A stretch of DNA of 21,739 nt from a virus. Both the position numbers and the translations under genes were made by a program. Every line of letters starts with the position of its first letter. The first letter of the stretch is position 1. Shown here in pieces: positions 4,302 through 19,247 of this stretch. The DNA lies in the IMG/VR virus record IMGVR_UViG_3300031951_001378, positions 1 through 21,739 of that record; one strand, 5' to 3'. The notes beneath the pieces were generated by a model. It worked only from the letters and a program-made list of their open reading frames with translations, made no database searches and was not told the origin of the DNA.

Positions 4302-4531
4302 TATACGTACTGCACCCAGATGTCCCCATCACTACCGCCTGTAGGGGCATTGGTAGAGACAGTTATATTGCGAACAACGTTAGATGAAGTAGATGCGGTT
4401 GTAACTTGACCGTTCACAACATTTACTGCACCGATTGCTGATGGGGTAATACCTAAAGCAGCTGGGTTTAGTTGTGGACTTCCAAAAGCTTCCCATTGAG
4501 AAGTTGCATTATTCCAACGCTTAATAGCCAT
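4301..4531 (-). CDS. Small fibre-associated protein, 76 aa
   Basis: The N-terminus, MAIKRWNNATSQWEAFG, is a Trp-containing unit similar in style to those in fibre proteins. The C-terminus, NAPTGGSDGDIWVQYV, shares the DGDIW element with the upstream 189-residue protein (TDGDIWIDSD). The middle is Ser/Thr/Val-rich. It may be a small tail-fibre subunit or an adaptor between its neighbours; no enzymatic motif is present. Both ends are coupled to neighbours by TAATG overlaps (at 4531 and 4301), so stoichiometric production with them is likely. Confidence 0.75.
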   Translation of the reverse strand: MAIKRWNNATSQWEAFGSPQLNPAALGITPSAIGAVNVVNGQVTTASTSSNVVRNITVSTNAPTGGSDGDIWVQYV

Positions 4532-5100
4532 TAGTTAACTCCATACACTAGGGCTGTGCCACCAGAAAACGTTCCGGTAGACAGAGAGATAGTCATTTTT
4601 GTTAGGGCTGCGACCTGTGTGAACGCATTATTAGCGTTTAGCATAGTTACTACATCCGAGGTGTTGGTATAAACCCCACGTAGTTGACCCCAAGCAAAGC
4701 TAGTTGTATCTTGAGTATCCACGATTTCAACAGAAAAGTGATTAGTTGTTATCCCAGACTTTACGTTAGTAATGCTAAATAGAGCTGTTCCAGAAGCATA
4801 ATTAACCACGTTATCGTTTAGTGTGATGTTTACTGTGGCGTTTGCAGACGGACGAACTCCACGGAACACTACGTACACGTCTTTATATGCAGATGAAATA
4901 GAAATATCAGTAGTGCTACCAGAAAGAGTAACCTGAGAAACTAAGTTCTTTCCAGCATTGTTTTGAACATCTGAATCTATCCAGATATCGCCATCGGTAG
5001 GTGTTGTAGGTTGATTGGCGCCTATGAAGACGCGCTTGCCAGCGTATTCGTCAGTGAACGATATAGGTCCTAACGGCTGGCCGTTATTTTGGACCGCCAT
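4531..5100 (-). CDS. Probable tail fibre or virion surface protein, 189 aa
   Basis: After a short N-terminal part containing GPISFTDEYAGKRVFIG, a GDIW element occurs at about residues 37-40 (PTDGDIWIDSD). The rest is a Thr/Ser/Val/Asn-rich beta protein (YKDVYVVFRGVRPSANATV, later FAWGQLRGVY). It ends GTFSGGTALVYGVN, an ending typical of short phage fibre or receptor-binding tips. No Cys is present, in contrast to the protein two genes downstream. It is coupled on both sides by TAATG overlaps. The fibre-type role is inferred from composition, ending and neighbours. Confidence 0.75.
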   Translation of the reverse strand: MAVQNNGQPLGPISFTDEYAGKRVFIGANQPTTPTDGDIWIDSDVQNNAGKNLVSQVTLSGSTTDISISSAYKDVYVVFRGVRPSANATVNITLNDNVVNYASGTALFSITNVKSGITTNHFSVEIVDTQDTTSFAWGQLRGVYTNTSDVVTMLNANNAFTQVAALTKMTISLSTGTFSGGTALVYGVN

Positions 5101-5435
5101 TACGAGACCTCAGAACCGAAAGCTTGGAAGGTTAAGTTTGCAGTAGACGCAATTACTGTAACTGTGTCTGTTGCAGAGAGGGTTAGACCAAGGGTAAAGG
5201 TGGTCGTAGTGTTAGCTGGAATAGCTGTGTCAAACGCAAGGTACTGTGCGTTAGCTAACGCAGCGTTGTCTTCACGAACTGCTATGCGGTAGGTTGCGGC
5301 AGTAGTTCCGCGGTTACATATGACCAGGGTTGATACCACAGCCGAGGTGGCAGCAGGAACCGCATATAGCTGGGTTCCGCCAGATACGTTTGCGGCCGGG
5401 GCAACCTGACCTAAGATCTTATACGTTGTCGGCAA
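5100..5435 (-). CDS. Small beta-rich virion-type protein, 111 aa, TTG start
   Basis: The sequence has a regular beta pattern: YKILGQVAPAANVSGGTQLY, AVVSTLVICNRGTTAATYRI, then NTTTTFTLGLTLSATDTVTV, and ends AFGSEVS. I recognise this type as a common small phage protein, with the ICNRG..ATYRIAV and LAFDTAIPANTTTT segments as its hallmarks. A role as a small surface or decoration protein is likely but not proved. The start is TTG 5435: AAGGAG lies about 7 nt upstream and no nearby ATG fits. The gene overlaps the end of the glycosyltransferase gene by 17 nt. Confidence 0.8.
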   Translation of the reverse strand: MPTTYKILGQVAPAANVSGGTQLYAVPAATSAVVSTLVICNRGTTAATYRIAVREDNAALANAQYLAFDTAIPANTTTTFTLGLTLSATDTVTVIASTANLTFQAFGSEVS

Positions 5436-6495
5436 GAGATTGCTCCTTAGAGTAGAATTCTAGATTCGCCGTAAGGCGAGAGTCATTCGGGCTCAATTCT
5501 ACGGCTTTGGTTCCGTATTGAAATGCCTTATCGAACAAACCTAAGCGATACGAGGCTATGGCCGCGTAATCCCAGGGAGCCGATCCCCAGGCAAATTCTT
5601 CACATAAATACTCTAAAGGCTTTTCTGTTATCTCCAGGGCGCTCTCTGCAGCGTCTAGACAGTCAAACCAACGGTTATTTTCGTAGTAAAGCTTGGCTAG
5701 CTCTACGTAACCCTCTCTACGATCTGGGGCTTCTTCTACAGCTTTCTTTAACCAATCTTCTTTTTCTACAAAGTCTTCCATCATTTTAGCTATATACCTC
5801 ATCGATGCTGCTCGTTCCGGTTTCCATACCGCCTTTGGTAAGGAAAGATGTCGTTTAAACTCTTCTACGGACTCAGCAAACTTTCCGTAGAAGAAAAGCT
5901 CTCTGGCAAAGTAAAAAGCGTTGCGATCGTCATATGGGTCTTCTTTTACAGACTGAGCAAGTAGTGGGAAGTATTGAGATCTAGGCTTTGTGTTATCAGC
6001 GTGATGGTGGATTTGTAAGGTTGTCCACCCTTGAACTTCATCCATACGATCAGTAACCAGTACCTCATGAACCGGATGTTTCCACCTATACCCGTGTCGT
6101 CTGTGGATTTTGTCCCCGCCGTATTGTAGGCCTGGGCTTCCATCCTCGTTCCAATTCCACGTATATTGGTACCTAGGTCTGGTTATGTTTGTGTTGGAGA
6201 GGGCCTCTAATTCCTTACGCCATCCAGGAACTAGAACCTCGTCCATATCAAGGGCTATGCAAAAATCAATATCACTTGGTAGTAGGGCTAGAGAAGCATT
6301 GCGAGCATCATCAAACCTCCAAGGCTTGACGCTAATTGTGTGGCACACAATTCCTAGGCTCTCAGCTACTGCCTTGGTATTGTCTGTAGACCCGGTATCG
6401 GCTATGAGCAAATAATCTGCTTCTTTAGCGGATTCATACCAAGACTTTATAAACTGCTCTTCGTTTAGTGCTATCGTATAGACGGCTATTTTCAT
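5419..6495 (-). CDS. Family-2 glycosyltransferase with helical-repeat C-terminus, 358 aa
   Basis: The N-terminal GT-A domain (about 1-160) shows IALNEE (8-13), ADTGSTDNT (32-40) and the metal/nucleotide-binding region ALDMDE (81-86), followed by a His/Trp-rich acceptor region (RRHGYRWKHPVHE, 132-144; IHHHAD, 162-167). These are standard features of family-2 inverting glycosyltransferases using a nucleotide sugar. Residues about 175-345 form repeated helical pairs (FYFARELFFYGKFAESVEEF, YVELAKLYYENNRWFDCLDA, AIASYRLGLFDKAFQYGTKA), typical of TPR repeats for protein binding. ATG 6495 was chosen over TTG 6510 because of GGAG 9 nt upstream. It sits inside a fibre gene cluster, so I infer glycosylation of a phage virion protein; modification of host envelope sugars is the alternative. 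Confidence 0.9.
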   Translation of the reverse strand: MKIAVYTIALNEEQFIKSWYESAKEADYLLIADTGSTDNTKAVAESLGIVCHTISVKPWRFDDARNASLALLPSDIDFCIALDMDEVLVPGWRKELEALSNTNITRPRYQYTWNWNEDGSPGLQYGGDKIHRRHGYRWKHPVHEVLVTDRMDEVQGWTTLQIHHHADNTKPRSQYFPLLAQSVKEDPYDDRNAFYFARELFFYGKFAESVEEFKRHLSLPKAVWKPERAASMRYIAKMMEDFVEKEDWLKKAVEEAPDRREGYVELAKLYYENNRWFDCLDAAESALEITEKPLEYLCEEFAWGSAPWDYAAIASYRLGLFDKAFQYGTKAVELSPNDSRLTANLEFYSKEQSLADNV

Positions 6496-6510
6496 GCCCT
6501 CATGCTCCAA

Positions 6511-6621
6511 TTATTCTTCTGGGTAAACTAAGTCGTAACCTACGACCACTCCTTCATCGTTCTTTACTTCGAACTTTTCTGCCCCAGTTTCTGGGTCAAT
6601 TCCTAGGCTTGTGCGAATCAT
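6511..6621 (-). CDS. Small acidic protein, 36 aa
   Basis: ATG 6621 overlaps the TGA of the 608-codon fibre gene in an ATGA arrangement and the frame ends at TAA 6511, encoding [20 protein letters not shown] and then [16 protein letters not shown]. The same frame is open upstream to 6753, but that part lies inside the fibre gene and reads like noise, so the start is placed at the overlap. The composition is acidic and beta-like, with no cysteines and no recognisable domain. Coupled translation with the fibre gene suggests a related late function, such as a small chaperone or fibre accessory. That is inference. Confidence 0.65.
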
Positions 6622-8444
6622 GAGAACCTTCCCCAAACACTTACTGTGCTGGATGACATAGACGATATTGTTGTAGGTAGATCTGTTTGAGCAGCCACTG
6701 CTCCGGTAATTCTTGGAGATAGTGTAGACATAGTTGCAGGTACTGAGCTCCAAGCAAGCTGTAGATTTCCTGGAGTAGATGCCAAGACTATAATTCCAAG
6801 AGCGTATCTAGTTCCAGCAGTCAAGGTATAGCTTGCAGGAAAACCACCAGTGGTGTCTAGAGTTCTTGTATAAAGAGTGTTAGTAGTTCCAAATAGTGTT
6901 GGATCAGTAGCGGTTCTAGCCACTAATGTAGCAGTGTTTCCTGAGACTGTGTAAATACCAAAACGTATTAATGAAGCTCCTGTTGTAGCTATGTTTGCTG
7001 AAGCAACGCTAATAGAGGTAACTGCGGCTTCCCAAGATGGGGTAAACATAGTTAAATAAACGGTTCCAGAGGTAGGGGTTCCTGTGAAATTACCTATGCG
7101 TGGGTACACATCTACTATAGAAGTAGTTTGATTCATAGGGCCAGCATTAGCTACTAGAGGGTTGCTCCAAACTAATCCCGTAGTCTCATCAGACTTTGCC
7201 GATAAGAATAGGCCATTTGCGCCAACTGCTAGGTTGTCCACTGCCCCATTTGCTGTAGCGGCAAGTAAATCTCCCTTTGCCGTTACAAGGTGAGTTCCTA
7301 GAAGAGTAGTAGTTTCTGCAGGAACTGTAACTGTTACATCAGCTACAGGATCTGTAAATGAGAGGGTAGTCTCAAAATCATTTGCAGTGCCTTCGACAGT
7401 TATGGAAGAGTCTGATAGGTATAGGCCTGAAACTGTTGGGCTAGTTAAAGTAAGCCCGGATACTGTAGCGGCAGTTCCTCCAAGGGATACCGAGGTAGAG
7501 CCAATGGTTACGCTAGAGTTAGCAAGCTTTACGTTAGTTACGTTAGCATCAACAATCTTTGCGGTAGTTACTGTGTTATCTGTAGGGGTGCGGGTATCTG
7601 AAAGACGAGTATCAGATCCGTATACAACTTCTGTTGTAGACGCATTGCCCGTTGCTGGGATATTCTTTGTAGAGGCGGTTCCAAGACCAGTTACCTGAGT
7701 ATTAGCAATGCTTAGAAGCGATTGATCTAGACCAAGAATTGCGGAAGATGCAGTCCCAGTATTTGTTATAGGGCCGGTTACGGAGATTACTCCGGAAGGA
7801 CCGACAATCTGTCCTGCGCTATACCAACCTTGAATATCGCTCCACACATAAATATCACCATCAGAATCCACAATGTATGCGTCATTCTGTGTAGGTGTTG
7901 GGGTCGTAGGTAAGTTTGCTGGAGTTGCAACGCTACCAATTAATTTAATTGGAATACCTTGTGGACCAGTTGGACCGGTAGCACCCGTTGGGCCTGTTAC
8001 TGTTGAGTCAGCTCCGGTTGGTCCTGTTGGGCCTGTTGGACCTTCTGGTCCTGTAGGACCAGTTACTGTTGAGTCAGCGCCTGTAGGTCCGGTTGGTCCG
8101 GTTGGGCCAGTAGGGCCTGTGGGACCAGTAGGGCCTGTTGGTCCTGTAGGACCAGCGGGAACTGTAAAGTTATAAATAGCCGCTGTTGGAGTTCCAGAGT
8201 TAGTTACAGCGGCAGAAGATCCAGGGGCACCAGTTGTTACAGTACCAATAGTTGCGGTAGAGCTAGGGCCAGTTGGGCCGGTTACACCGGAAGAATAAGG
8301 AAGGGAGTTCCAAAGCTGAGTTCCATTACCGACTTTAAAGCGTCCGGTATCGTATTCATAACCTACTTCACCTTGAGCAAGCAAAGGGTTATTAGAGGAC
8401 CATGCAGCAGCGGTATCGCGGCGGAATTGAATTTTAACAGCCAC
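6618..8444 (-). CDS. Collagen-like tail fibre with Mtd-N-like head domain, 608 aa, GTG start
   Basis: Residues 3-50 ([20 protein letters not shown], then [17 protein letters not shown] and WNSLPY) match the small N-terminal domain found in phage fibres and in major tropism determinants (Mtd_N type). Gly-Pro-Thr triplets occupy about 54-60 and 98-163. A GD.Y.W module (165-216, IPIKLIG...[17 protein letters not shown]) follows. Residues 220-430 are fibre-shaft-like ([40 protein letters not shown]). The C-terminus (about 437-608) is a beta-rich tip with Trp, Tyr and Thr. GTG 8444 has AGGAGA upstream. It follows the 118-residue collagen-like gene by 10 nt. A receptor-binding fibre is the likely role. 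Confidence 0.88.
7956..8153 (-). repeat. Gly-Pro-Thr triplet repeat region of the 608-aa fibre
   Basis: This codes residues about 98-163: near-perfect G-P-T triplets, interrupted twice by a GADSTVTGP element. The DNA is a series of 9-bp units of the form (g/a)cc(a/t)gt(a/t)gg on the plus strand with codon variation. Such repeats form trimeric collagen-like shafts in phage fibres. Confidence 0.9.
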
Positions 8445-8454
8445 TTATGGTCTC

Positions 8455-8811
8455 CTAACCAAGAACGTTTCCGGCATCAATAGTTGGTGCGCCACCGTAT
8501 ATTGTATTAGCTGCGCCGCCATCTATGTTCTGAAAGATTGGGCCAGTTGGTCCAGTAGAACCTGTAGGACCTGTAACACCTTGTAAACCTTGTGGTCCAA
8601 TTGGACCAGTCGGACCAACAGAACCTGTTGGGCCTGTTACTCCTTGAGCTCCCTGCGGACCTGTGGGTCCCGTTGGTCCAATAGGACCTGTAGGGCCAGT
8701 TGCTCCCTGAGACATGCTGATACGCCAAACAGAGCCGTCCCAGTACCATGTCTGATCCCCGACTGTAAATGTTTGATTTAAAGTGGGGGAGTTAGGGAAA
8801 TCAATGGGCAC
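8455..8811 (-). CDS. Short collagen-like virion protein, 118 aa, GTG start
   Basis: The N-terminal domain (1-35: [20 protein letters not shown] followed by SVWRI) is a short phage fibre head motif with W-Y-W and W. Collagen-like triplets (36-91) have GPTGP, GPQG and GVTGPTGS units. A C-terminal tail, [13 protein letters not shown] (95-107), ends in IDAGNVLG. The GPTG shaft suggests a trimer. GTG 8811 follows GGGAG at 4-nt spacing and overlaps the upstream gene's stop region by less than a codon. With the 608- and 680-residue proteins this is the third collagen-like product in the window, and the shortest; it may act as a minor decoration fibre. Confidence 0.85.
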
Positions 8812-8812
8812 A

Positions 8813-8974
8813 TTACTCCCAAATCTCTAGCTCAGGATTTAGAGGAGCATCACCGTTAACTAATTTCCATGCTAAATACTGTGAGCTGTCTTCGTCAACT
8901 CTTATCGGAAAGCCCACAGAATCAAAGGTAAAGATTATTCCATCTGGACTTTTTTCAAATTTAGGCGTTGTCAT
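8813..8974 (-). CDS. Small acidic protein of unknown function, 53 aa
   Basis: ATG 8974 to TAA 8813, with AAGGAG just upstream, encodes [20 protein letters not shown], followed by a part containing [18 protein letters not shown] and ending NPELEIWE. It fills the otherwise empty space between a paralogous fibre-like gene and the short collagen-like gene, with 8 nt on one side and near-contact on the other. The composition is acidic and beta-like. I recognise no family, and no metal or catalytic motif is visible. The ribosome binding site and tight fit make it a credible gene. Confidence 0.75.
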
Positions 8975-8982
8975 TTTTCTCC

Positions 8983-10290
8983 TTAGAATGGGTTATTAAA
9001 TACCCAAACACCTTGGTTAATAGCGTTACTGTATACATTGCCAGCCTGAAGAACAAGAAATTGGTTTGAAGATCCGGTAGTTGATACATGCCAAGTATTT
9101 AAATCTATCTGATGATTGATATCGGGGACAAATTCATTAACATCTATAACATCAAGAATAGTAACCTTATATGTAGTTGGGTTTATAGAAAATTTTACAA
9201 ACTCATATCCTGAAGTAGTCATGGTAATCCAAGTATCAACACCTATGGGCCAAACCATGTTGTTACTCCAGGATCTCCAACTGGGTTGTGGATCAGCAGT
9301 CTCATCTACGCGAGTTATGGTATTTCCGTTTCTAACAAAAATATTTCCATTTGAAGGGTAGTAAATTTGACGATTATTAGAAAGTTCTAAACCCCAACCA
9401 TCAAATAGGGCGTCTCCTCCATCGAAGCCTACAGCAGAAAAATTCCCAGTTACATCGTACCCCCCAGCTAAATTAAGTAAGTCATAGTGTGGGCATCCTG
9501 CGCTGTCACGAAAAACACGCATTCCAGCACCTGCTTCTGGGGAATTGTTTGCTGCCCCAAACTTATGCTTTACAGGCCAAGTAACGCTATACGCTTGTCT
9601 AGACCCAACGGAAGGCGCCTCACTTTGCACTAACGCAACTGAGGTACCATTAAATGAGTAGCTTATTCTTCTAAATAAACCCGTTGCAGTGTCGTATGTT
9701 TGAGCGTGATGATAAGCAATTCCAGTAGCATTATTGTAATTTCCCGGAGCATCTGTATTATTTTGAGGTTGTGCTTGAGGACCACCTGTAATAGTAGTTG
9801 CAGTAGCGGCTACAGCATTGTTGGCAATTCGAAATGCAGTAAATGAATTAGAACCGGCAGCGGGTGAGGTGTGCTGGTGCATGACGTACTTGCCTTGAGC
9901 ATTTACAGTTCCAGTATCAATATTAGTGCTTGTAGAGCTAGTTAAAGTTATGCCTGCAGCGCCAGTACCAACAGTAATTGCGCCCGTTGTTTGATTTACT
10001 CTAAATGGAAGAGCATATACTTCAGCATAAGCGTCGTTTATAGCGTAATGACGGGAGGTAGAAACAAAGTCTCCGCCGCCCAGGTTAAAAGTTCTTCGAT
10101 AAATAGTAGAACTTTGTGTGTAACCCACTGCAGCAGAAGTAGTAAATCTAGCAGAACCTGGATGTACTACTTTAAAATCAATTGGTTTCCTATAAGCACG
10201 AAAGTCTGCCCCAGGATGTTGACGCCATGTAGGTTTTTGTGGTTCAGATTGAATTTTAGAAAATTGACCTAAAAATGCACCATCAGTCAT
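8983..10290 (-). CDS. Fibre-like paralogue C of a three-gene tandem family, 435 aa
   Basis: This is the third member of a tandem family. Family blocks here include the glycine patch (FNLGGGDFVSTSRHYAI), the block LPFRVNQTTGAITVGTGA, ISYSFNGTSVALVQSE, LELSNNRQIYYPSNGNIFVR, GVDTWITMTTSGYEFVKFSI, NPTTYKVTILDVIDVN and a final QFLVLQAG. The regular beta pattern and G/N/T-rich loops suggest a beta-propeller-like or sandwich surface protein, but I cannot name the fold. The start is ATG 10290 (AGGAG upstream); TTG 10299 is in frame but less likely. One base separates it from the previous gene. A virion receptor-binding role is inferred from the cluster. Confidence 0.75.
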   Translation of the reverse strand: MTDGAFLGQFSKIQSEPQKPTWRQHPGADFRAYRKPIDFKVVHPGSARFTTSAAVGYTQSSTIYRRTFNLGGGDFVSTSRHYAINDAYAEVYALPFRVNQTTGAITVGTGAAGITLTSSTSTNIDTGTVNAQGKYVMHQHTSPAAGSNSFTAFRIANNAVAATATTITGGPQAQPQNNTDAPGNYNNATGIAYHHAQTYDTATGLFRRISYSFNGTSVALVQSEAPSVGSRQAYSVTWPVKHKFGAANNSPEAGAGMRVFRDSAGCPHYDLLNLAGGYDVTGNFSAVGFDGGDALFDGWGLELSNNRQIYYPSNGNIFVRNGNTITRVDETADPQPSWRSWSNNMVWPIGVDTWITMTTSGYEFVKFSINPTTYKVTILDVIDVNEFVPDINHQIDLNTWHVSTTGSSNQFLVLQAGNVYSNAINQGVWVFNNPF

Positions 10291-10291
10291 T

Positions 10292-11674
10292 TTATCCAAC
10301 TCCTGTCATTGGGTTTTTGTACACACGTATTGTTGGCCAGTAGTTACGGTCTTGAGTATGAACCATTACAATAAATTGATTATTACTTCCTGTAACACCG
10401 TTACCAAACCACACAGCTCCAGCATCCCAGTTTTGACCTCTTTGCATAGTGCGATTAAAGAAGCTTTCTATAATTGTAACTTTGTAAGTATTTGGGTCAA
10501 TTTTAAACTTTGTCCAGTGACGATCTCCTCCTGTAGAGCAGGAGATCCAAGTATCTACTCCCACTGGTGTGGCATAATAACCAAAGTCATTTCTAGATAC
10601 GTCTAGCCAGTCTGCAGTGGCTGAAACATCAGTCAAAACGTTTCCGTTTCTTAAAATAACTCGTTCATCTTCAGTCCATATAATTTGACGTCCATTTGAA
10701 AGGTCAAATCCATATGCCCTAAACGGACGATCAAATACTCCCCCACAAAATGACGTATCTACTGTAGAGGCTACTACTCCAGTGTTGTTAATAATATCAA
10801 AACGCCCATACCCATTATTATCTAATCTATAGCGGACTACTCCTAAAGTAGAAGAACCAAAATACCCAGTATTATATTGGCTATAGTTAGTTACTACATA
10901 GTTTGTCCCACCTTCTCCTTGAGAAAAAGTAGAAACAACTGCATTACCTTTAACGTTCCTTACTGTTGATAATGTAGTTCCATTATAAGAAGCAACTAAA
11001 TCCACATAACTTCTTGGAGTGGATTCTTCATAAGCATTCATAACAAAGTATGCGGTGTTGTCTCCGTTTGCCCTTGTAGTACCTAACATATAATTATCAT
11101 AAGAACGCACAGGTAAGGCAGAAGTACCTACGTTTATAAAGGACTGTCCAGTTACAGTGTTGCCTGCAACATTACACGCAGAAATAGTGCCACTGTTATA
11201 GGTTAAATTAGGTGGGCCACTAAAGTCGCCAAAACTAAACACATATGTCCCAGAAATTGCCCAAGCTTGTGTACTTGAAGTGGTCGTAGTGTTATTTAGG
11301 TTACCCCAAATTCTAGCACCGGTACCTTCAGTTATTACTCCTGTTGTTTGATTAACAGTAAAAGGTTTTACATAAACTTCTGTAGAGTACGTTTCTGGAG
11401 AGGTTCTTAAAATAGTAAATTGAGAGGAGGCGTATGAAAACTGGCCCCCACCATGGTTAAATAATCTATGGTCCTGAATAGTTCTAGGAACAATGCAATT
11501 ATTGGTGTCAAACCCTGTAGCTAACATGCGCTTTGAGTCTACTAATGCAAACGGGGAATCAGCATATCCGTTTGGTCCCCAAGCGCTATCTGGCCTAATA
11601 GTTGTACCAAAACCCCTATTGGCAGATTTCTTACGAGTTTTAACTAATTCATTTAGTGGAAGTATTCCGTCCAT
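10292..11674 (-). CDS. Fibre-like paralogue B of a three-gene tandem family, 460 aa
   Basis: This is the middle member of the family. It has the same order of blocks as its neighbours: a glycine patch (FNHGGGQFSYASSQF), VKPFTVNQTTGVITEGTGAR, VASYNGTTLSTVRNV, FDLSNGRQIIWTEDERVILR, PVGVDTWISCSTGGDRHWTK, FKIDPNTYKVTIIES and NNQFIVMVHT. It shares the C-terminal blocks more closely with paralogue C than with A. ATG 11674 directly abuts the upstream stop (0 nt), with AGGAAG upstream. The N-terminus (first 40 residues) is not shared and could be an anchoring segment. No enzymatic motif is visible; a surface adhesin is the best guess. Confidence 0.75.
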   Translation of the reverse strand: MDGILPLNELVKTRKKSANRGFGTTIRPDSAWGPNGYADSPFALVDSKRMLATGFDTNNCIVPRTIQDHRLFNHGGGQFSYASSQFTILRTSPETYSTEVYVKPFTVNQTTGVITEGTGARIWGNLNNTTTTSSTQAWAISGTYVFSFGDFSGPPNLTYNSGTISACNVAGNTVTGQSFINVGTSALPVRSYDNYMLGTTRANGDNTAYFVMNAYEESTPRSYVDLVASYNGTTLSTVRNVKGNAVVSTFSQGEGGTNYVVTNYSQYNTGYFGSSTLGVVRYRLDNNGYGRFDIINNTGVVASTVDTSFCGGVFDRPFRAYGFDLSNGRQIIWTEDERVILRNGNVLTDVSATADWLDVSRNDFGYYATPVGVDTWISCSTGGDRHWTKFKIDPNTYKVTIIESFFNRTMQRGQNWDAGAVWFGNGVTGSNNQFIVMVHTQDRNYWPTIRVYKNPMTGVG

Positions 11675-13075
11675 TTATCTTCCTTGCCTTCCGTGTCTTA
11701 TAACCCTAATTTTTGCTCGAGTACTCATGTTTAGCTCGCTTGGAGTAACAGTTAAGAAAAACTGCCGATCAGTACCAGTCATGAGAAGACCGCTATTATT
11801 GTAAGCAGCATTTATTCGATTAAGAGTTTTAGTGCCCCAATTAATATTAAAACTGTCTAAGTATTTAACCTCTAGCGTTGCTGGATTTATGTAAACTTTT
11901 ATCATTTCAACTGGGGTTACAACATTTGGGAGCCACCAAGTGTCTTGAGCTACAGGATTCATTTTAATAGCCAGATTTCTCCCACTACCAGGTATTACTA
12001 GGCCAGCAGTAGGGCCTTTTCTTATTTGTTCAGTAACATTTGTTACTGCGTATCCGCTTCCAGGAGTTCCAATTCTAAATACATGGGCATCTCTAGTAAA
12101 AATTAGGGTTGTTCCATCAGATAGTTGGAGTCCATTAATATCTGGATAATGAACCTGTGGATTTCCCCCCAGAAGAGTATTTCCATTTAGGGTTGAAACC
12201 GGGGCTAAAACATTGTCAAGAGCTTGAAATCTTGTTGCCCCAGCACTAGTCACAAACTGTCTAAAACCTACAGTAGCTACAGCGGTTCCCGCCTCAAAAT
12301 TAGCGCTCCATTGAGGAGCAATAGGAGTTGTACAGTGCCATTGACTTAAACTGGTGTTTGTAGCATCTAAAGCATTTTCTCTTACTTTAGTAAGAGTAGT
12401 ACCATTGTAAGAGTATACAAGATCATACGCACCAATTTGAGTTCCAGACGAGTTATGCGTTCTCGCTCCTGGAGCAAAATAAGATGTGTTACCGTTTCTA
12501 GTTACAGACTGCTCATGGTTATTATTATAAGAGGCGTGTGCTAGTGGCGCACCCACGTTATTTGCTGCTCCAGCAACTTGAGATTGTATACCAGATACGG
12601 TGTTATTAGATACTGTCCAAGCGGCTATGTAAGTTTGCCCTAAATAACCGAAAAACCATGCATGGCTTCCCGCGCCACCCCACATTGAGGTTGAGGTTTC
12701 TGCACCAGAGGCACTATTAAAGATAACTTGAGCGCCAGTACCAACAGTAATTGCACCCGTTGTTTGATTTACTTGAAAGGGTAATACATACAGCTCTGCG
12801 CCAGACGGACTTCCTTGACGATAGTAGTTAGTTGCGGCAAAAGAATACTGATTTCCGCCGTGATAGTAAGTTCTGTTATAAACAACTGAGTTTGACTGCA
12901 CTCTAGTTGCCGTGTTTAATGCCGTAGTAGTAACAAGTTTAAGGTCTACTGTTGGGTCCCCAAATTGAACTAAGTCGGGATAGGGACGGAGCCAATCTCT
13001 AGATTTAGTTTGTCGACCTTCTAAAGACTTTTCTAACTTAGCAATTTCGTTAAGTTTGTAGATATCGTTAGACAA
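11675..13075 (-). CDS. Fibre-like paralogue A of a three-gene tandem family, 466 aa, TTG start
   Basis: This is the first member of the family. It has the glycine patch (YYHGGNQYSFAATNYY), LPFQVNQTTGAITVGTGAQV, LVYSYNGTTLTKVRENAL, LQLSDGTTLIFTRDAHVFRI, INPATLEVKYLDSFNINWG and DRQFFLTVTP, and ends in a basic tail (RVIRHGRQGR). The C-terminal half is the most diverged of the three. Translation starts at TTG 13075: AAGGAG lies 6 nt upstream and the next Met in frame is far inside. The gap to the 864-residue fibre gene is 13 nt. The role is inferred to be a virion surface protein that recognises host or environmental glycans. Confidence 0.75.
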   Translation of the reverse strand: MSNDIYKLNEIAKLEKSLEGRQTKSRDWLRPYPDLVQFGDPTVDLKLVTTTALNTATRVQSNSVVYNRTYYHGGNQYSFAATNYYRQGSPSGAELYVLPFQVNQTTGAITVGTGAQVIFNSASGAETSTSMWGGAGSHAWFFGYLGQTYIAAWTVSNNTVSGIQSQVAGAANNVGAPLAHASYNNNHEQSVTRNGNTSYFAPGARTHNSSGTQIGAYDLVYSYNGTTLTKVRENALDATNTSLSQWHCTTPIAPQWSANFEAGTAVATVGFRQFVTSAGATRFQALDNVLAPVSTLNGNTLLGGNPQVHYPDINGLQLSDGTTLIFTRDAHVFRIGTPGSGYAVTNVTEQIRKGPTAGLVIPGSGRNLAIKMNPVAQDTWWLPNVVTPVEMIKVYINPATLEVKYLDSFNINWGTKTLNRINAAYNNSGLLMTGTDRQFFLTVTPSELNMSTRAKIRVIRHGRQGR

Positions 13076-13088
13076 CTTCTACTCCTTA

Positions 13089-15683
13089 CTAAGCCGCGGC
13101 TATAGTGGTTATGTTACCGTTCGCGTCAGTGGTCACAGTATAGCTGGTAGTGACCGCAGTTCCGCCCACTGTTACTACTTCCTGGAAGGAAGCTATGTAG
13201 CCGGAGGCATTATAGGTAATGTTTTGGACCGTCTTATTTGCCGATACTTTGTACTTAGTTAGGCGGTTAGAGGCATCGTATGTGTAATCGCCAGAAACAA
13301 TCGCTGTTTGAGTGATTAATGAGCGATCTTGAGCGTCTACATAAGCCTTAGTAGTAGCGTGTCCAGAAGTTGTTGGGGTAGCTACTGTTGCGGTGCCTGT
13401 TACAGTAAGGGTGCTTGAGAAAGAACCGGTTGAGGCGCTAATACCTGAAAGGGTAAGGCCGGCCTCAGAGAAGTTTACTGATGCGGTTGGCTTAGTAACG
13501 GCATTGTCAAAGAATTTAAATAGGCCGTCAGATGCATCTCGAACCGCTCCAGCAAATACTCTACGAGCTGAAACGCTTGCGCTACCTGCTGGGGAAACCG
13601 CAGCTGAGGTTACGTTAGCGTTAGTCTTAGCGTATGTAAATGTAGTGGCAAGAGGAACAGCAATAATTGAGTAGGTTCCGTCAAATGTAGCGTCAACTCC
13701 TGATACCACTACCACGTCACCTGCACGATATGTGTGGGCTGATGCGGTAGTTAGGGTCGCTACGTTGTTAGTCAAAGCCTTGTTAGTAATTGAGGCTGTG
13801 ATAGCAGATACAGGGACTGTGTGCTCAAGCATGAGACCAAGATCTAGAGCGTCTGCCTGGTTTGCAGTTCCTACGAAGATAAATGGATCTGTAACAGCAA
13901 GGTTGCTTGTCTCAACTGTAGTTCCTGCACCACCGAAGGAGATGGTACCTACTACAGAGACGTTACCTTGGATGTTCATATCACCGTTAATACCAACGCC
14001 ACCTACAACGGTGAGAGCACCTGTAGTTGGAGAGGTAGAAGGTGTTGGGATTTCAATATGGACGTTTACATCTGGGGTAATTTCCATCTGGGTGTTACCA
14101 GAGTCATAGCCACCAGCAGCAAAAACAATCTTGTTTTCTGCTCCAGAAGCACCTGTTGCGATAACTAAGTTACCGTTATAGGTGTCGTTTAGAGTGTCGT
14201 GGAAGATGTAGGCGTCTCCAGGACCGGTAATTCCGTAGGTTGTGTCATCAAACTGAGATCCTGTGATACCAAAGCCAACCCAACCAAATGAGTCATTACC
14301 GTTGTTCATGTAAGCGATAATGTCTGTGGATGAAGTTGCTGTCTGGTTCTGGAACGCAATCTGAGCAAATGAGCTTGCGTCACCTGTAATTCTAAATACA
14401 GCAGCTGGGCTAGTTAAATCTCCAGCGCCTACTGCGTAAGATTCTGCGTTTGGACCGATGTAAGCAATACCACCAGCGGTAAGGTCGCCATCAATGTCCG
14501 CTTCTCCGCTGATATTTAGGTTTCCATCTGCACCAATACCACCATCTACAACAAGAGCACCTGAGGTATTTGTAGTTGATTCGGTGTCGATTGTGATGTG
14601 AACACCCTCATTTTGGATAATCTCCATTTGAGTTGTTCCGGCGCTAAATCCACCAGCAGCAAATACGATGTTGTTACGAAGACCAGTTTCGTCAGTAGCA
14701 AATACTAGGTTTCCATCGCCTGTAGGCTTATATGTGGTTCCTGGAGGAGTTACTGGAGTAGCTTCAAGAGTTCCTACGTTAGTAGCAAAACGGAAGGTCA
14801 GGGGAGAAGGAACTAGTGTTACAGTTCTAATTCCATCAAAACCTGTACCAACACCTTCAACTCGGACAACATCTCCGGTTGTATACCCGTGCGCTGTAGC
14901 TGTTGTTAGTGTTGCTTGTCCTGAAGCCACTGCCTTTGTTCCAACAGCAAATTCTGTTGTACGTGGGGCAGACATGAAGATGTATCCATCATGTGGGCCG
15001 GTAATTCCATAAGTTACTGCGCTGAAGTCATTGCTGGTAATACCCATGTCAATGAATCCGGAATCATTTGTTCCATCAGCAGTGTAGATAATTATGTCGC
15101 CAGATGCGTTTGCGCCGTTTGATAGGTTAGCAAGAGATAGCTGAGCAAAGTCTGCGCTAGACGCTGTGTAAACTCCCATAACATCTGTAAGTCCAGCAGC
15201 CTCTTCAAATGTATCAGCAGCTTGGCCTTGAGAGTTACCTATATAAGTTTTAGTTAAATAAAGTGTGTCTGCCCAAGTTGGGTTAGTACCTGTTGTTGCA
15301 AGTACTTTGTTAGTGTTTCCAGCTTGGCTAGGAAGACCTTGTTGTCCAAGCGCTAAAATTTCTAGGTTTGCGTTTCCAAAAGCAACAGTAGATGTAGCAG
15401 TGTGCTGAGTTACTACAATGTAGGTATTGGTTCCATCTGTAACAACATCGTTTACATAGTAAAGAGTTCCGTTGGTGTACGTTCCGCGGTAGTCGATACC
15501 TTCTGTAACTAGAACCCACTTAGTTGCGTTAGTAGGAACAACGCCAGTTGCAGCATCTGTTGCTGTAAACGCGTAAAGGTTCGGCCCGTACTTGACTAAG
15601 TCGTTGTATGAGTACTCAGTCGCAGGGTTGTAGATTCCCGCCCAATTAAAGCGGATCTTTCCCAAATCTATAATCTGGGCCAT
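13089..15683 (-). CDS. Large modular tail fibre, 864 aa
   Basis: Residues 10-110 hold two short W/Y-rich units (FNWAGIYNPATEYSYNDLVK and YRGTYTNGTLYYVNDVVTDG), similar to small carbohydrate-binding modules of the chitin-binding 5/12 style. Two long related modules follow, about 179-392 and 439-573. They share SxDIIxY, TYGITGP, NLVxAT, IVFAAGG and TQMEI, and each ends SGALVVDGG/TGALTVVGG. A FCCH-like beta domain (AVASGQATLTTATAHGYTTG, 251-315) interrupts the first module; a second FCCH-like copy lies at 635-698. The C-terminus has the fibre motif SGHATTKAYVDAQ (773-785) and a final beta tip. ATG 15683 has GGAGGT upstream and abuts the previous stop. A long receptor-binding fibre is the likely role. 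Confidence 0.88.
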   Translation of the reverse strand: MAQIIDLGKIRFNWAGIYNPATEYSYNDLVKYGPNLYAFTATDAATGVVPTNATKWVLVTEGIDYRGTYTNGTLYYVNDVVTDGTNTYIVVTQHTATSTVAFGNANLEILALGQQGLPSQAGNTNKVLATTGTNPTWADTLYLTKTYIGNSQGQAADTFEEAAGLTDVMGVYTASSADFAQLSLANLSNGANASGDIIIYTADGTNDSGFIDMGITSNDFSAVTYGITGPHDGYIFMSAPRTTEFAVGTKAVASGQATLTTATAHGYTTGDVVRVEGVGTGFDGIRTVTLVPSPLTFRFATNVGTLEATPVTPPGTTYKPTGDGNLVFATDETGLRNNIVFAAGGFSAGTTQMEIIQNEGVHITIDTESTTNTSGALVVDGGIGADGNLNISGEADIDGDLTAGGIAYIGPNAESYAVGAGDLTSPAAVFRITGDASSFAQIAFQNQTATSSTDIIAYMNNGNDSFGWVGFGITGSQFDDTTYGITGPGDAYIFHDTLNDTYNGNLVIATGASGAENKIVFAAGGYDSGNTQMEITPDVNVHIEIPTPSTSPTTGALTVVGGVGINGDMNIQGNVSVVGTISFGGAGTTVETSNLAVTDPFIFVGTANQADALDLGLMLEHTVPVSAITASITNKALTNNVATLTTASAHTYRAGDVVVVSGVDATFDGTYSIIAVPLATTFTYAKTNANVTSAAVSPAGSASVSARRVFAGAVRDASDGLFKFFDNAVTKPTASVNFSEAGLTLSGISASTGSFSSTLTVTGTATVATPTTSGHATTKAYVDAQDRSLITQTAIVSGDYTYDASNRLTKYKVSANKTVQNITYNASGYIASFQEVVTVGGTAVTTSYTVTTDANGNITTIAAA

Positions 15684-15944
15684 TTATAATACCTCCATTA
15701 GCAAACGTCCGCCGGTTCCCCAACTAAAGGTGAGGGTGTTGTAGGTCCAAACCCAATTACGGTAATCATTAGATAGAGTAACGAATTGGTCCGGGAGACT
15801 GATTGGTTCATCGCCAAGAATTCTATCTATAACTACTGCACTAGTCTGGTTATTCTGCTTAACACCGTAAAAAGCCTGATCGACTATGTCTTCCAGGGAA
15901 GTCTGCCCTGGTCCATAGTTCAAAAGGGAGGGGGAGGCGGTCAT
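15684..15944 (-). CDS. Small virion-type protein of unknown function, 86 aa
   Basis: The N-terminal half is helical in character (SLEDIVDQAFYGVKQNNQTS). The C-terminal half is aromatic (NDYRNWVWTYNTLTFSWGTG). No Cys, signal peptide or catalytic motif is present. The start ATG 15944 overlaps the upstream stop by one base (TAATG), with AAGGAG nearby, and the stop abuts the ATG of the 864-residue fibre. This suggests a small component of the fibre attachment or baseplate made in proportion with the fibre, but the family is not recognised. Confidence 0.75.
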   Translation of the reverse strand: MTASPSLLNYGPGQTSLEDIVDQAFYGVKQNNQTSAVVIDRILGDEPISLPDQFVTLSNDYRNWVWTYNTLTFSWGTGGRLLMEVL

Positions 15945-16369
15945 TACTTGACTCCTTCTGTCAGGTTAACGGTTAGGTTGACTACGTCTTCTATGGGGCA
16001 GCTAGCTTTGATCACATCGCCAGTCTGTAAAACAAACTCGGTAGCTACTGGATATCGATTTACTTCCGGTTCTGAGACATCTCCGACTCGGGTGTCTCCA
16101 GATACCAAAGGCAGGACCATATATTTGGTTGTCAAAACTCTTGTTGAAGTCAACAAGAAAGTAGAGGTATTAGCAGCTCTATAAACATAAAGTTTTACTG
16201 GGAGGATGGTTCCGTAGGTGTTTGTAGCCAGAACAGAGCTTACTCGGGTTTTTGACGTTGCAGTAAAAATAGTTGTTGAGCTAGGGTCTTTATCTGTAAC
16301 TTGAACGGTAACGCTTTTGGCGTTTCCAGTCTCCGCCACTGTACCCACGGGGTACGCATATCCTGGCAT
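15944..16369 (-). CDS. Beta-rich virion-type protein, 141 aa
   Basis: The protein is Thr/Val/Ser-rich with alternating hydrophobic residues, such as AKSVTVQVTDKDPSSTTIFT, LPVKLYVYRAANTSTFLLTS and EFVLQTGDVIKASCP. It resembles a small beta sandwich, as in phage tail or decoration proteins. The TGDVIKAS element near the C-terminus is common in small beta-sandwich virion proteins. ATG 16369 has TAGGAG upstream. No family is recognised with confidence, and a structural role is inferred from composition and neighbours. It is coupled to the next gene by TAATG. Confidence 0.75.
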   Translation of the reverse strand: MPGYAYPVGTVAETGNAKSVTVQVTDKDPSSTTIFTATSKTRVSSVLATNTYGTILPVKLYVYRAANTSTFLLTSTRVLTTKYMVLPLVSGDTRVGDVSEPEVNRYPVATEFVLQTGDVIKASCPIEDVVNLTVNLTEGVK

Positions 16370-16400: not shown

Positions 16401-16859
16401 TTATACCTCAGACAAATTTTGTTTAATGCTTAATTCTTTGTAGTCCTGCATATCCTTTATTAAAGACTCCCAACGAACTTCGCTAGGCTCCTCATAATCT
16501 ATGTTGTAGTCGTTTATTGCCCCAGGTTTGAATACCAGAGTATTCACACCTAATTTGTTGACCTTTTCCGCTAATTCTTGATCCGAGGTTACTACGCAGT
16601 CTACCGGCCCACATCCGCTCAGATACTCGATTCTTCGATAATCTGGGTCGTCCTTGGGACAAGGCAAATTGTTGTCCAAAAGCTCGTGTGATTTATAGAT
16701 CTTGTTCATCCTTAACCACATGTCTGCTTCGTTCCAGTCACTGCAGAGAAGAACTACTTTTCTGCGGTCTTTTAGGGCTTCCATAAGTTTAAACCCGTAA
16801 GGTATGGGTTTTCTTCTTTTATCCCTGAGTACTCCGTCTAAGTGAATCAATATGGCCAT
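16401..16859 (-). CDS. HAD-fold-like protein lacking the nucleophile Asp, 152 aa
   Basis: The N-terminus MAILIHLDGVL matches HAD superfamily motif I (hhhDxDGxL), but the usual nucleophile position is His6; the second, acid/base Asp is kept (Asp8). Motif II-like Ser40 follows a hydrophobic strand (VVLLCSDWNEAD). A later strand plus loop (VDCVVTSDQELAEKVNKLGV, 86-105; TLVFKPG, 107-113) fits the end of the Rossmann-like core. At 152 residues it is a minimal, capless form. Classical phosphatase chemistry through an Asp phosphoenzyme looks impossible, so it may be a degenerate binding domain or use other chemistry. ATG 16859 has only a weak AGG upstream. Sitting between structural genes is unusual for an enzyme. 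Confidence 0.7.
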   Translation of the reverse strand: MAILIHLDGVLRDKRRKPIPYGFKLMEALKDRRKVVLLCSDWNEADMWLRMNKIYKSHELLDNNLPCPKDDPDYRRIEYLSGCGPVDCVVTSDQELAEKVNKLGVNTLVFKPGAINDYNIDYEEPSEVRWESLIKDMQDYKELSIKQNLSEV

Positions 16860-16879: not shown

Positions 16880-17203
16880 TTACGCTTGTAAGATCCCCTG
16901 TACAAAGAATCTAACTCCCGCAGAACCAGCAACGACTATTGAATCGGTGTTATTCACTCCAAAACGGAAAGTCTCGTAGCTATTAAACGCTGGTAGTGGG
17001 AGCTTATGTGCTATTAAGGCTCCACCTAGTTCGGTTCCGGTGGAAGTCTTAACGGTCACATAAATCTCTGCATCAGAAGATGTGGTGTTAGTAGCAATGA
17101 CTGAGCATAGATAATTACCAGTAGATGTCCAAGCATTATTTCCAGAGCCAAAAGCTGCGGAAGTTGTTTGGTCATAGATTGCTAAATTGCCAATACCTGC
17201 CAT
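16880..17203 (-). CDS. Small beta-rich virion-type protein, 107 aa
   Basis: The pattern is strand-rich and Thr/Ser/Ala-rich (NYLCSVIATNTTSSDAEIYV, ELGGALIAHKLPLPAFNSYE, TDSIVVAGSAGVRFFVQGIL). In plan it resembles the 111-residue protein at 5100-5435: a short strand pair, a turn with N-x-T/G, then a long strand, and both could be small sandwich proteins. That similarity is weak. TAGGAG lies upstream of ATG 17203, one base after the collagen-like gene. Its role is probably a small decoration or fibre accessory protein; no motif proves it. Confidence 0.75.
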   Translation of the reverse strand: MAGIGNLAIYDQTTSAAFGSGNNAWTSTGNYLCSVIATNTTSSDAEIYVTVKTSTGTELGGALIAHKLPLPAFNSYETFRFGVNNTDSIVVAGSAGVRFFVQGILQA

Positions 17204-17204
17204 G

Positions 17205-19247
17205 TTACGCTCCTAACCACCAAGATAATGCAAGGCTTGATGGACCTGGTGGGCCTTGTTCACCAGTTGCACCCGTAGGCCCTGTAGGTCCTACAGTTCC
17301 TGTAGGTCCAGTTGGACCAAGAGGTGCTGCTCCTGTTTCAACCCAGTATCCATCATAGAAAATAAAAATACTGCCTGTATTTGGATCAAACCACGAATCT
17401 CCCTCAACTGCTGGAGATGGTGGAGTTGAAGATGTTGTAGTCCAAGCTCCTAGTGGACCTGTGGGTCCTGTAGGTCCTTGCGATCCCGTCGGTCCTTGTG
17501 GACCAACAATCATTCCTACATCATCCCACTGTGATCCATCCCAAAGCCAAAGATGTCCGCCATCTTCTTCGACAATATACGCATCGCCCGCAGTATTTCC
17601 AGTTGATGGGAGATCTGCAATTAATGAAACAGTTCCCTTTATTACAATTGATGTTCCTTGCGGACCAGTCGGACCAGTAGCTCCGGTAGGTCCTATAGGA
17701 CCAGTATCACCTACTGCTCCTGTCGGGCCTGTTGGGCCTGTTGGGCCTTGTGGTCCAGTGGAACCAGAGTAGTAAGGTGCCCAATAAGCAGTTCCTGGCG
17801 GATACCCTGGGTTTGGCCCAAGAATTCTTATAAATAATTCACCTGGGTTACCGTAAGGACTTCCAACAGGAGTACTTACAATATCTCCTACATTGTAATC
17901 AGCACCGTTGTCGTAATCGCCAACATAATTAGGAAATGTTCCCGCAGCGCCAGTAGGACCTGTTGGTCCCTCAATATTTCCAACGTTGTCCCATTCAGAA
18001 TTTATATTGTCCCAAACGTATAAATTACCGTTTACAAGATAAGCATCGCCAATGTTTCCCGTTGGTTGTGCGGCAACAAGTGCAGCATAACTTGAGTAAG
18101 AACCAAGAATATTTACGCCGGTTCCTTGAGGACCCGTAGGACCAGTAGGACCTTGAGGTCCAGTTAAACCATTTGGTCCCATCAATCCCATAGGGCCAGT
18201 TGGGCCAGTTGGACCGTGTGAACCTGTTGGTCCGGTCGGACCTTGAATTCCTTGAGGACCGGTCGCTCCGGTAGGTCCAGTTACATTTGATGCAGCGCCA
18301 GTAGGGCCAGTCGGACCAGTTGCACCAACTTCACCTTGAGGTCCTGTTGGACCAGTTACAGTAGAGGCTGCTCCTGTAGGTCCGGTTGGTCCAATCTCTC
18401 CGGCTATACCTTGAGGTCCTTGTGCACCAGTCGCGCCTGTTGCTCCTGTAGCACCGGTCGCGCCAGTAGGTCCTGTAGATCCTTGTGGACCAGTTGGACC
18501 AGTTACTGTGGATGCTGCACCCGTAGGACCTGTAGATCCGGTGGGACCAGTAGGTCCAGTTGGGCCTTGAATTTGACCTACGTTATCCCAAGTGTTGCCT
18601 TCCCAAACATAGAGATCGCCGTCAATTAAATATCCGTCGCCCTTTTGCTGACCTGTAATGGACTGTAGCTGAGCGTAATTAGATAGGGTGCCCTGTATTG
18701 TTAGGCCGGTTCCCATAGGACCTGTAGGGCCCGTAGGACCAGGAATTGTAGATGCCGCACCAGTAGGGCCAGTAGCACCAGTAGCTCCTTGAGGTCCTTG
18801 AGAACCAACGGCGCCAGTCGGACCGGTTACACCTTGAGGACCTGTTGCTCCAGTTGCGCCAGTCGCTCCAGTTGCACCAGTAGGACCGGTTTCTCCACGA
18901 GCACCAGTAGGACCAGTGTTTCCAGATAAACCGATTGGACCAGTCGCACCAGTTGGGCCGGTAGGACCAGTTACGTTAGATGCTGCACCTGTTGCACCAG
19001 TAGGGCCAGTGGGTCCTTGTGAACCTGTAGGGCCTTGTGCACCGGTGGGTCCCGTTGCTCCAGCAGCACCAGTAGCGCCGGCAGCACCAGTAGGGCCAGT
19101 AATTGATTGTCCAGCAGCACCGGTTGGACCGATTGGTCCTGTTGGACCGGCAGGACCAGTAGGACCACTGCCTCCGGTACCAGGTTCAATAATAACTACA
19201 GGAGTTGAATCCTCAGTTATCTCAATAATCTCTATTTCGTCAGACAC
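17205..19247 (-). CDS. Large collagen-like modular fibre, 680 aa, GTG start
   Basis: A short acidic N-terminus (1-22) leads into long G-x-y triplets, mainly GPTG, GATG and GPQG (28-180, 228-376, and shorter runs at 498-531, 582-598 and 643-669). A repeated small module separates them at about 182-228, 377-427 and 532-582: hydrophobic strands, then GD.Y.(V/I) and (L/D)(Y/W)(V/L)W....WD.VG.I. Residues 436-494 ([20 protein letters not shown] ... YWAPYYS) resemble a small chitin-binding-style module. Residues 601-640 ([20 protein letters not shown]) form another W-rich module. It ends in a short aromatic tip. GTG 19247 overlaps the upstream gene by 8 nt. A trimeric host-recognition fibre is likely. 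Confidence 0.9.
17241..19166 (-). repeat. Collagen-like G-x-y repeat blocks of the 680-aa fibre
   Basis: On the plus strand this reads as 9-bp units of the type (g/a)cc(a/t)gt(a/t)gg(a/t) with many synonymous changes. It is interrupted by three related domains at about 18701-18564, 18119-17967 and 17654-17502 and by two other small modules. A recurring GAAS(T/N)VTGPTG element marks block boundaries. Confidence 0.85.

Follow-up and report, generated by a model that had tools for sequence, protein, structure and literature searches.

Three tandem genes behind a phage tail-fibre gene probably encode beta-propeller adhesins exchanged as a cassette between two phage lineages

We analysed the IMG/VR virus record IMGVR_UViG_3300031951_001378 from position 1 to 21,739 (this whole stretch of 21,739 bases is called the window below), and found that three consecutive genes downstream of its tail-fibre gene probably encode seven-bladed beta-propeller adhesins. 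Judged from sequence comparisons and structure models, the three proteins would make up the receptor-binding tip of the upstream fibre and could be swapped between phages as a cassette. The genes were located as three adjacent open reading frames (ORFs) on the minus strand, at 11675-13075 (first paralogue; 466 amino acids (aa), TTG start), 10292-11674 (second; 460 aa) and 8983-10299 (third; 438 aa from a TTG). The third gene probably starts at the ATG at 10290, giving 435 aa, as GGAG lies nine bases ahead of this codon and the orthologues share MTDGAFLG. The 864-aa tail-fibre gene (13089-15683, minus strand; PHROG 9851) is separated from the first gene by 13 nt and the first gene from the second by 0 nt, while the gap between the second and third genes is ~1 nt with the ATG start or -8 nt with the TTG start. 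An earlier reading of the window made from the letters alone (the sequence-only reading) had described three consecutive genes of about 435-466 residues with almost no spacing at this place, and our coordinates agree with both points.

Pairwise BLASTP among the three proteins yielded identities of 32%, 27% and 30% (E values of 7e-27, 1e-20 and 5e-27, respectively) over 375-433 columns. By this measure the similarity is far beyond chance and the three genes are true, diverged paralogues, as had been proposed. On the other hand, the description of the products as fibre-like proteins did not survive structure prediction. AlphaFold2 models were built for the third gene with an alignment of 12 rows (predicted local distance difference test score (pLDDT) 77.1, predicted template modelling score (pTM) 0.81) and for the first gene with 18 rows (pLDDT 71.5, pTM 0.78), and both matched solved propellers, so that the window proteins are, on these models, beta-propellers; the fold of the second protein is assigned by its alignment to the other two. 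Among the best 50 of 235 Foldseek matches to the third-gene model at E <= 0.001, most were propellers, and the matches listed included sialidases and an arabinanase. In VIA, the best match to the third protein was Escherichia coli YncE (Z 16.2, root-mean-square deviation (rmsd) 4.0, 297 residues aligned), and PLL-type lectins also scored well (6gxs, Z 14.9, rmsd 4.4, 311 residues; 6rg2, Z 14.7, rmsd 4.1, 288 residues); the first protein matched Sec12 (Z 15.8, rmsd 4.7, 313 residues) and YncE (Z 15.4, rmsd 4.3, 304 residues).

Seven blades were counted by eye from the DSSP strand list of the third-gene model. An N-terminal strand (residues 41-45 in the third protein and 42-49 in the first) and a last blade left with three strands fit the closure of the ring by that strand, as judged from the strand lists alone. 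No further domain follows the propeller in either model, and only a short helix of low confidence precedes it (residues 4-17 in the first-gene model, followed by the all-beta domain). The three window proteins have no curated match in Pfam or PHROG, 12 members of the family gave only weak matches there (the best being one member to PHROG 24898, tail fibre, E 0.0011), and a sequence search of the solved structures found no relative (best E 0.068).

The sequence-only reading had based its case on a common order of motif blocks. The order is real, with VNQTTGxIT, SYNGTT, LS.GRQI, NPxTYKVT and QF.V present in all three window genes, though imperfect in some, but the glycine patch at its head is weaker than described; a strong patch is a trait of relatives grouped with the record L005 (see below), and the window trio shares only a GG near residue 74. 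On the models, the blocks mostly correspond to hairpins between strands C and D, namely VNQTTGxIT in blade 1, SYNGTT in blade 3 and NPxTYKVT in blade 6, while LS.GRQI and QF.V belong to blades 5 and 7, where they fall on strands A-B or B. In the third gene, for instance, VNQTTGAIT (9973-9999, minus strand; residues 101-109) and NPTTYKVTI (9157-9183, minus strand; residues 373-381) are the C-D hairpins of blades 1 and 6, respectively. The DNA of the blade-1 hairpin is 92% identical over 51 bases between the third gene (9958-10008) and the first (12731-12781, both on the minus strand), although the two genes are only 27% alike in protein. In this hairpin, 15 of 18 codons are identical between the first and third window genes, against 7 of 18 and 11 of 19 in comparisons with their own orthologues. 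Recent gene conversion between the two genes is possible but not established, as the P value of 0.008 against the 14 other within-genome pairs pooled (109/205) became ~0.12 after correction for 15 pairs.

Relatives of the three genes were recovered only by sensitive searches. When each of the three proteins was searched against 50,697 phage records, at the DNA and at the protein level, there were no hits, and the third gene of L005 likewise gave none at E values up to 1. Single-protein scans with the second and first genes found nothing as well, while scans with alignments gave relatives in six IMG/VR records, L004, L005, L006, L007, L008 and L017. Genome contigs scanned with the 12-row alignment contained no relative and hence provided no host link. 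L004 and L007 carry three genes in the same order as the window, 67-74% identical to those of the window, and L005 and L017 carry three propellers each. At least two propellers are present in L006, whose contig ends before the first gene, and L008 has a single distant copy in a different setting. Counting copies per genome, we found that all five complete records (the window, L004, L005, L007 and L017) have exactly three of them lying between the fibre gene and the gene that comes after the set; the L017 set is complete at three because its contig begins within the last codons of the fibre gene (NVTAIAQV, stop). As L004 and L007 are close kin (89% identical in DNA over 12.8 kb), these amount to about three independent observations of the three-copy set.

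The records carrying the set belong to two lineages with unrelated capsids, one BRock-like and contractile and the other Karimac-like, as far as sequence comparisons tell. Six records of Streptomyces phages of the BRock kind have capsid proteins that share 71-72% identity with that of the window, and BRock itself is described as a myovirus (PMC7453282). A sheath gene is present in L007 and in a further record, L027, and shares 41-49% identity with its counterpart in the BRock relative Alone3. In contrast, L006 resembles Karimac-type phages, with 57.9% identity in the portal protein and a gene order that matches that of Karimac, in whose genome no relative of the L007/L027 sheath was found. The capsid proteins of the window and L006 are unalike (PHROG 1357 versus 1623). 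The nearest isolates infect Streptomyces, and the window and its relatives are uncultured phages; no propeller was detected by profile in Alone3, BRock or Karimac, whose genomes are complete.

What the two lineages have in common is a block of genes in one order, comprising a 107-aa gene (16880-17203), a 141-aa gene (15944-16369), an 86-aa gene (15684-15944; all on the minus strand in the window), the fibre gene and the three propellers. Between the window and L005, identity is 61% for the 107-aa, 56% for the 141-aa and 68% for the 86-aa protein and 62% for the fibre, while the propellers are ~30-41% identical. Its place is downstream of the capsid gene in the lineage of the window, whereas L005, L006 and L017 have it upstream of the portal gene. 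The window, L004 and L007 have an additional 152-aa gene inside the block (16401-16859 in the window, minus strand), which has no Pfam match and is missing from the block of L005.

In the phylogeny of the propellers, the third-position genes of six records (the window, L004, L005, L006, L007 and L017) formed one clade (100/99). This clade was retained in a second tree, from which 2 of the 18 rows (L008 and the second gene of L017) had been dropped for their long branches. The first and second positions correspond one-to-one within the lineage of the window. One-to-one orthology of all positions across the lineages was considered and rejected except for the third, as single clades of the first and second positions were disfavoured (approximately unbiased (AU) test, P = 0.031 and 0.009, respectively). 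Since the third-position clade spans the lineages, at least two genes predate either the lineage split or the exchange of the block. The step to three genes may have happened twice, or gene conversion may have blurred the record, and the long branches make this history uncertain. The sequence-only reading preferred local duplication, to which a separate orthologue cluster for each paralogue in unrelated phages would have run counter. Such a cluster, in phages with unrelated capsids, was seen for the third position only. As the entire block including the fibre is common to both lineages, the pattern is that of a duplication after which the copies were exchanged jointly rather than acquired one by one. 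The proposal of paralogues that arose by duplication in a tail-fibre neighbourhood is thus supported.

The set also appears to have been replaced as a unit. A stretch of 4842 bases that starts 17-18 bases ahead of the 581-aa gene located after the set is 98.5% identical between L006 and L017. Their 581-aa and portal proteins are 97.6% and 99.6% identical, yet their third-position propellers are only 43.9% alike, and therefore the set was replaced in one of the two records; as L006 is cut before the first gene, the replacement covers the second and third genes at the least. Conversely, the portal proteins of L005 and L006 are only 92% identical, yet their third propellers are 73% identical. A different replacement is found in L027, which is collinear with the window in its capsid, collagen-like, fibre and glycosyltransferase genes (capsid protein 80% identical). 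In L027 the same slot holds a single 447-aa gene whose product does not resemble the propellers and for which no relative was found beyond its own contig; it is our impression, no firmer than that, that this product is perhaps another propeller. Elsewhere, fibres of this kind precede members of a 316-323-aa family, present once or twice, or glycine-rich proteins. Two tandem copies of this tip family (318-323 aa) are found in L022 (8673-10601) and one in the same slot of L023, and L005 carries two fibre-plus-tip units in series (1-2187 and 3494-9722), with a glycine-rich tip in one and then the three propellers. A scan with the fibre detected 17 loci. Three are known propeller-bearing records, and in the other 14 no propeller was seen within the DNA covered; several of these loci stop inside the fibre gene or directly behind it, and in six the match to the fibre is confined to a short N-terminal stretch.

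In the fibres compared, the type of the fibre end matches the type of tip that follows. Over their N-terminal 120 aa, the ten fibres compared all resemble one another (52-100%). At the other end, the last 75 aa were compared for eleven fibres and sorted into three types, between which no similarity was seen at E 1e-3. The window-type end is followed by the propeller set and nothing else in all four cases (the window, L004, L007 and L005), and the last eight residues of the L017 fibre agree with this type; the two other types precede other tip proteins. On the propeller side, alignment and a motif scan point to short N-terminal peptides as putative fibre anchors, MSNDIYKLNEIAKLEK in the first gene (13028-13075), MDGILPLNELVKTRKK in the second (11627-11674) and MTDGAFLGQFSKIQSE in the third (10243-10290; all on the minus strand), the last being the divergent form that the proposed anchor takes in the lineage of the window. 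Counted by eye, an NE-type motif occurs near the start of 13 of the 17 propellers with an N terminus, the remaining four being the three third-position genes of the window's lineage and L008; the pattern scan itself catches 11, including the divergent third gene of the window. We infer that these peptides dock on the fibre end.

Sequence variation is concentrated on one predicted face of the propeller. When loops were sorted by the predicted strands, mean identity over the 18 rows was 0.18 for the 143 positions of the D-A and B-C loops and 0.51 for the 63 positions of the A-B and C-D loops. Five narrower sets showed a difference in the same direction; the corresponding values were 0.12 versus 0.47 for the three window paralogues and 0.66/0.90, 0.72/0.85 and 0.65/0.93 for the trios of orthologues. 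Taken blade by blade, the contrast occasionally vanished or was reversed, as in blade 4 both among the window paralogues and within the third-gene trio. A set that is replaced beside near-identical neighbours, gives way to an unrelated gene in L027 and varies most on one face behaves like a receptor-binding module, in line with the receptor-binding role guessed from the sequence.

Combining these observations, we propose the following arrangement. Each propeller would be held by a short N-terminal helix of the [LIVM]NE-x-x-K type, joined through a flexible and often glycine-rich linker, to the C-terminal domain of the fibre. The conserved face (A-B and C-D loops) would be turned towards the virion or neighbouring propellers, and the variable face (D-A and B-C loops) would bind a receptor on the cell surface, most likely a glycan. 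The three proteins together would fill equivalent positions of one fibre tip. Binding, docking and stoichiometry in this scheme are what we infer, and several points weigh against it. The asymmetry of the faces is no proof of a receptor face, since C-D hairpins may be kept for folding alone; the A-B and C-D loops are shorter and easier to align than the D-A loops, which biases the comparison, and adjoining positions in it are not independent. Part of the contrast may thus be due to folding constraints on hairpins and to loop length. The link between fibre end and propellers comes from four fibres, two of which (L004 and L007) are near relatives, and the fold of the second protein is assigned only through its alignment to the other two. 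Furthermore, many propellers are enzymes or scaffolds rather than lectins.

Two versions of the adhesin proposal differ in how the three copies work together. In one, the paralogues dock independently at the same kind of site and each recognises a different receptor, so that a single phage, or a population whose members carry mixed tips, could address several hosts or receptors. We regard this version as a serious candidate short of an even chance: the window copies differ mostly in the D-A and B-C loops, most of the family carries the same NE-type motif, and the other tip family occupies the slot as one (L023) or two tandem (L022) copies, whereas a free mixture should vary in copy number and the propeller sets have been constant at three so far. 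In the other, the tip is an obligate hetero-oligomer with one copy of each protein per fibre tip, forming one composite surface for which all three are needed. The constant number of three in the five complete records of both lineages, retained also after replacement of the block, and the block-wise co-inheritance are what this version predicts, and a single clade for the third position together with the rejection of such clades for the first and second fits three copies having been reached separately in each lineage. Nevertheless, the number of independent observations is only about three, the collinear L027 has one unrelated protein in the slot, so that three are not needed for the function of the fibre as such, and phi11 Gp45 demonstrates that propeller receptor-binding proteins can be homotrimers (PMC4901313); we therefore hold the obligate hetero-oligomer to be possible but doubtful. 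It is attractive to speculate, and we consider it rather unlikely as a whole, that an obligate three-propeller tip is combined with a code of anchor peptides and fibre ends by which whole sets are plugged onto fibres of unrelated virions, with three sites on the fibre end as the reason why the number three was retained or was reached twice.

Functions other than adhesion appear improbable. The propellers might be sialidase- or lyase-like enzymes that cut a surface glycan, as phages K1F and phi92 have propeller endosialidases (PMC4901313) and the Foldseek matches listed included sialidases and an arabinanase. However, the Asp-box in its strict form was found in none of the 18 members and in a loose form only once, in the first gene of L005, no Pfam enzyme family matched, and many propellers without enzyme activity score similarly; an enzymatic role is thus improbable in our view. 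Still less credence is given to structural propellers of the baseplate or tail that do not bind the host. Seven-bladed propellers do serve as scaffolds, for example in the nozzle of SU10 (PMC9509320), but the copy set, the fold family and the sequence are replaced beside conserved neighbours, unlike in a core structural protein, and a profile search of the complete Alone3, BRock and Karimac genomes found none. Adhesion by a propeller tip on the fibre accordingly remains our preferred explanation of the three genes.

Other genes around the block deserve mention. Three collagen-like (GPTGPTG) tail proteins flank it (17205-19247, 8455-8811 and 6618-8444, minus strand), of which the one at 6618-8444 has an N-terminal domain of the Mtd_N type. 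Beside the fibre genes, 5419-6510 (minus strand) encodes a family 2 glycosyltransferase with TPR repeats (PHROG 13126, E 6.5e-118; Pfam Glycos_transf_2), kept in L004, L007 and L027, which possibly glycosylates virion proteins. The gene at 2268-4301 (minus strand) encodes a 677-aa protein with a long cysteine-rich repeat region, composed of units like SSTCCQNNGQCSGTATCQESQTNY, which is unusual for a phage; the DNA repeat periods are 39, 72, 78 and 144, and the protein had no Pfam match and no relative in L004, L005, L006, L007 or L008.

Propeller receptor-binding proteins (phi11 Gp45; PMC4901313) and shared fibre modules (PMC10579305) are already known. In Gp45 of Staphylococcus phage phi11 (PDB 5EFV), the propeller is described as the receptor-binding part, is preceded by an N-terminal helical part and has its last blade closed by an N-terminal strand (PMC4901313, PMC6115969); the strand lists of the window proteins would fit a similar closure. 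Gp45 is, however, a five-bladed homotrimer encoded by one gene, with a long stem and C-terminal towers, while the window has seven blades, three genes and only a short N-terminal peptide, and no sequence relation was found between them. The C-terminal domain of gp131 from Pseudomonas phage phiKZ (4GBF) is a seven-bladed propeller at the baseplate periphery suspected of receptor binding (PMC4901313, PMC6115969), but there the propeller is the C-terminal domain of a larger protein, again with no sequence relation found. This structure was absent among the Foldseek and VIA matches listed, which is no evidence of a difference. In phiKZ, gp131 has gp132 and gp133 beside it, and this group would come closest to a set made up of several genes. 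PLL-type lectins (6gxs, 6rg2, 5mxe and 6gxr) share the fold (Z 14.1-14.9 over 288-311 residues), but at ~6-8% identity and tied with many non-lectin propellers, the comparison being one of fold. Alteromonas phages A5 and V22 are reported to have a fibre module common to morphologically distinct, distant phages (PMC10579305), which consists, however, of a single fibre plus a chaperone without a propeller set. In the fibres of extracellular contractile injection systems, propeller lectins occur near collagen-like shafts (PMC12923769), as the window propellers adjoin collagen-like proteins, but they are fused in one fibre of an injection system instead of being separate phage genes. In the parts of the open-access literature covered, no set of three propeller paralogues kept as a unit in unrelated phages was found.

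The cassette constitutes a natural experiment, in which near-identical phages carry different sets and the end of the fibre predicts the type of tip. The change or widening of host range by exchange of tip parts thereby becomes directly testable, and the association offers a rule for spotting those tip proteins of uncultured phages that homology searches miss.

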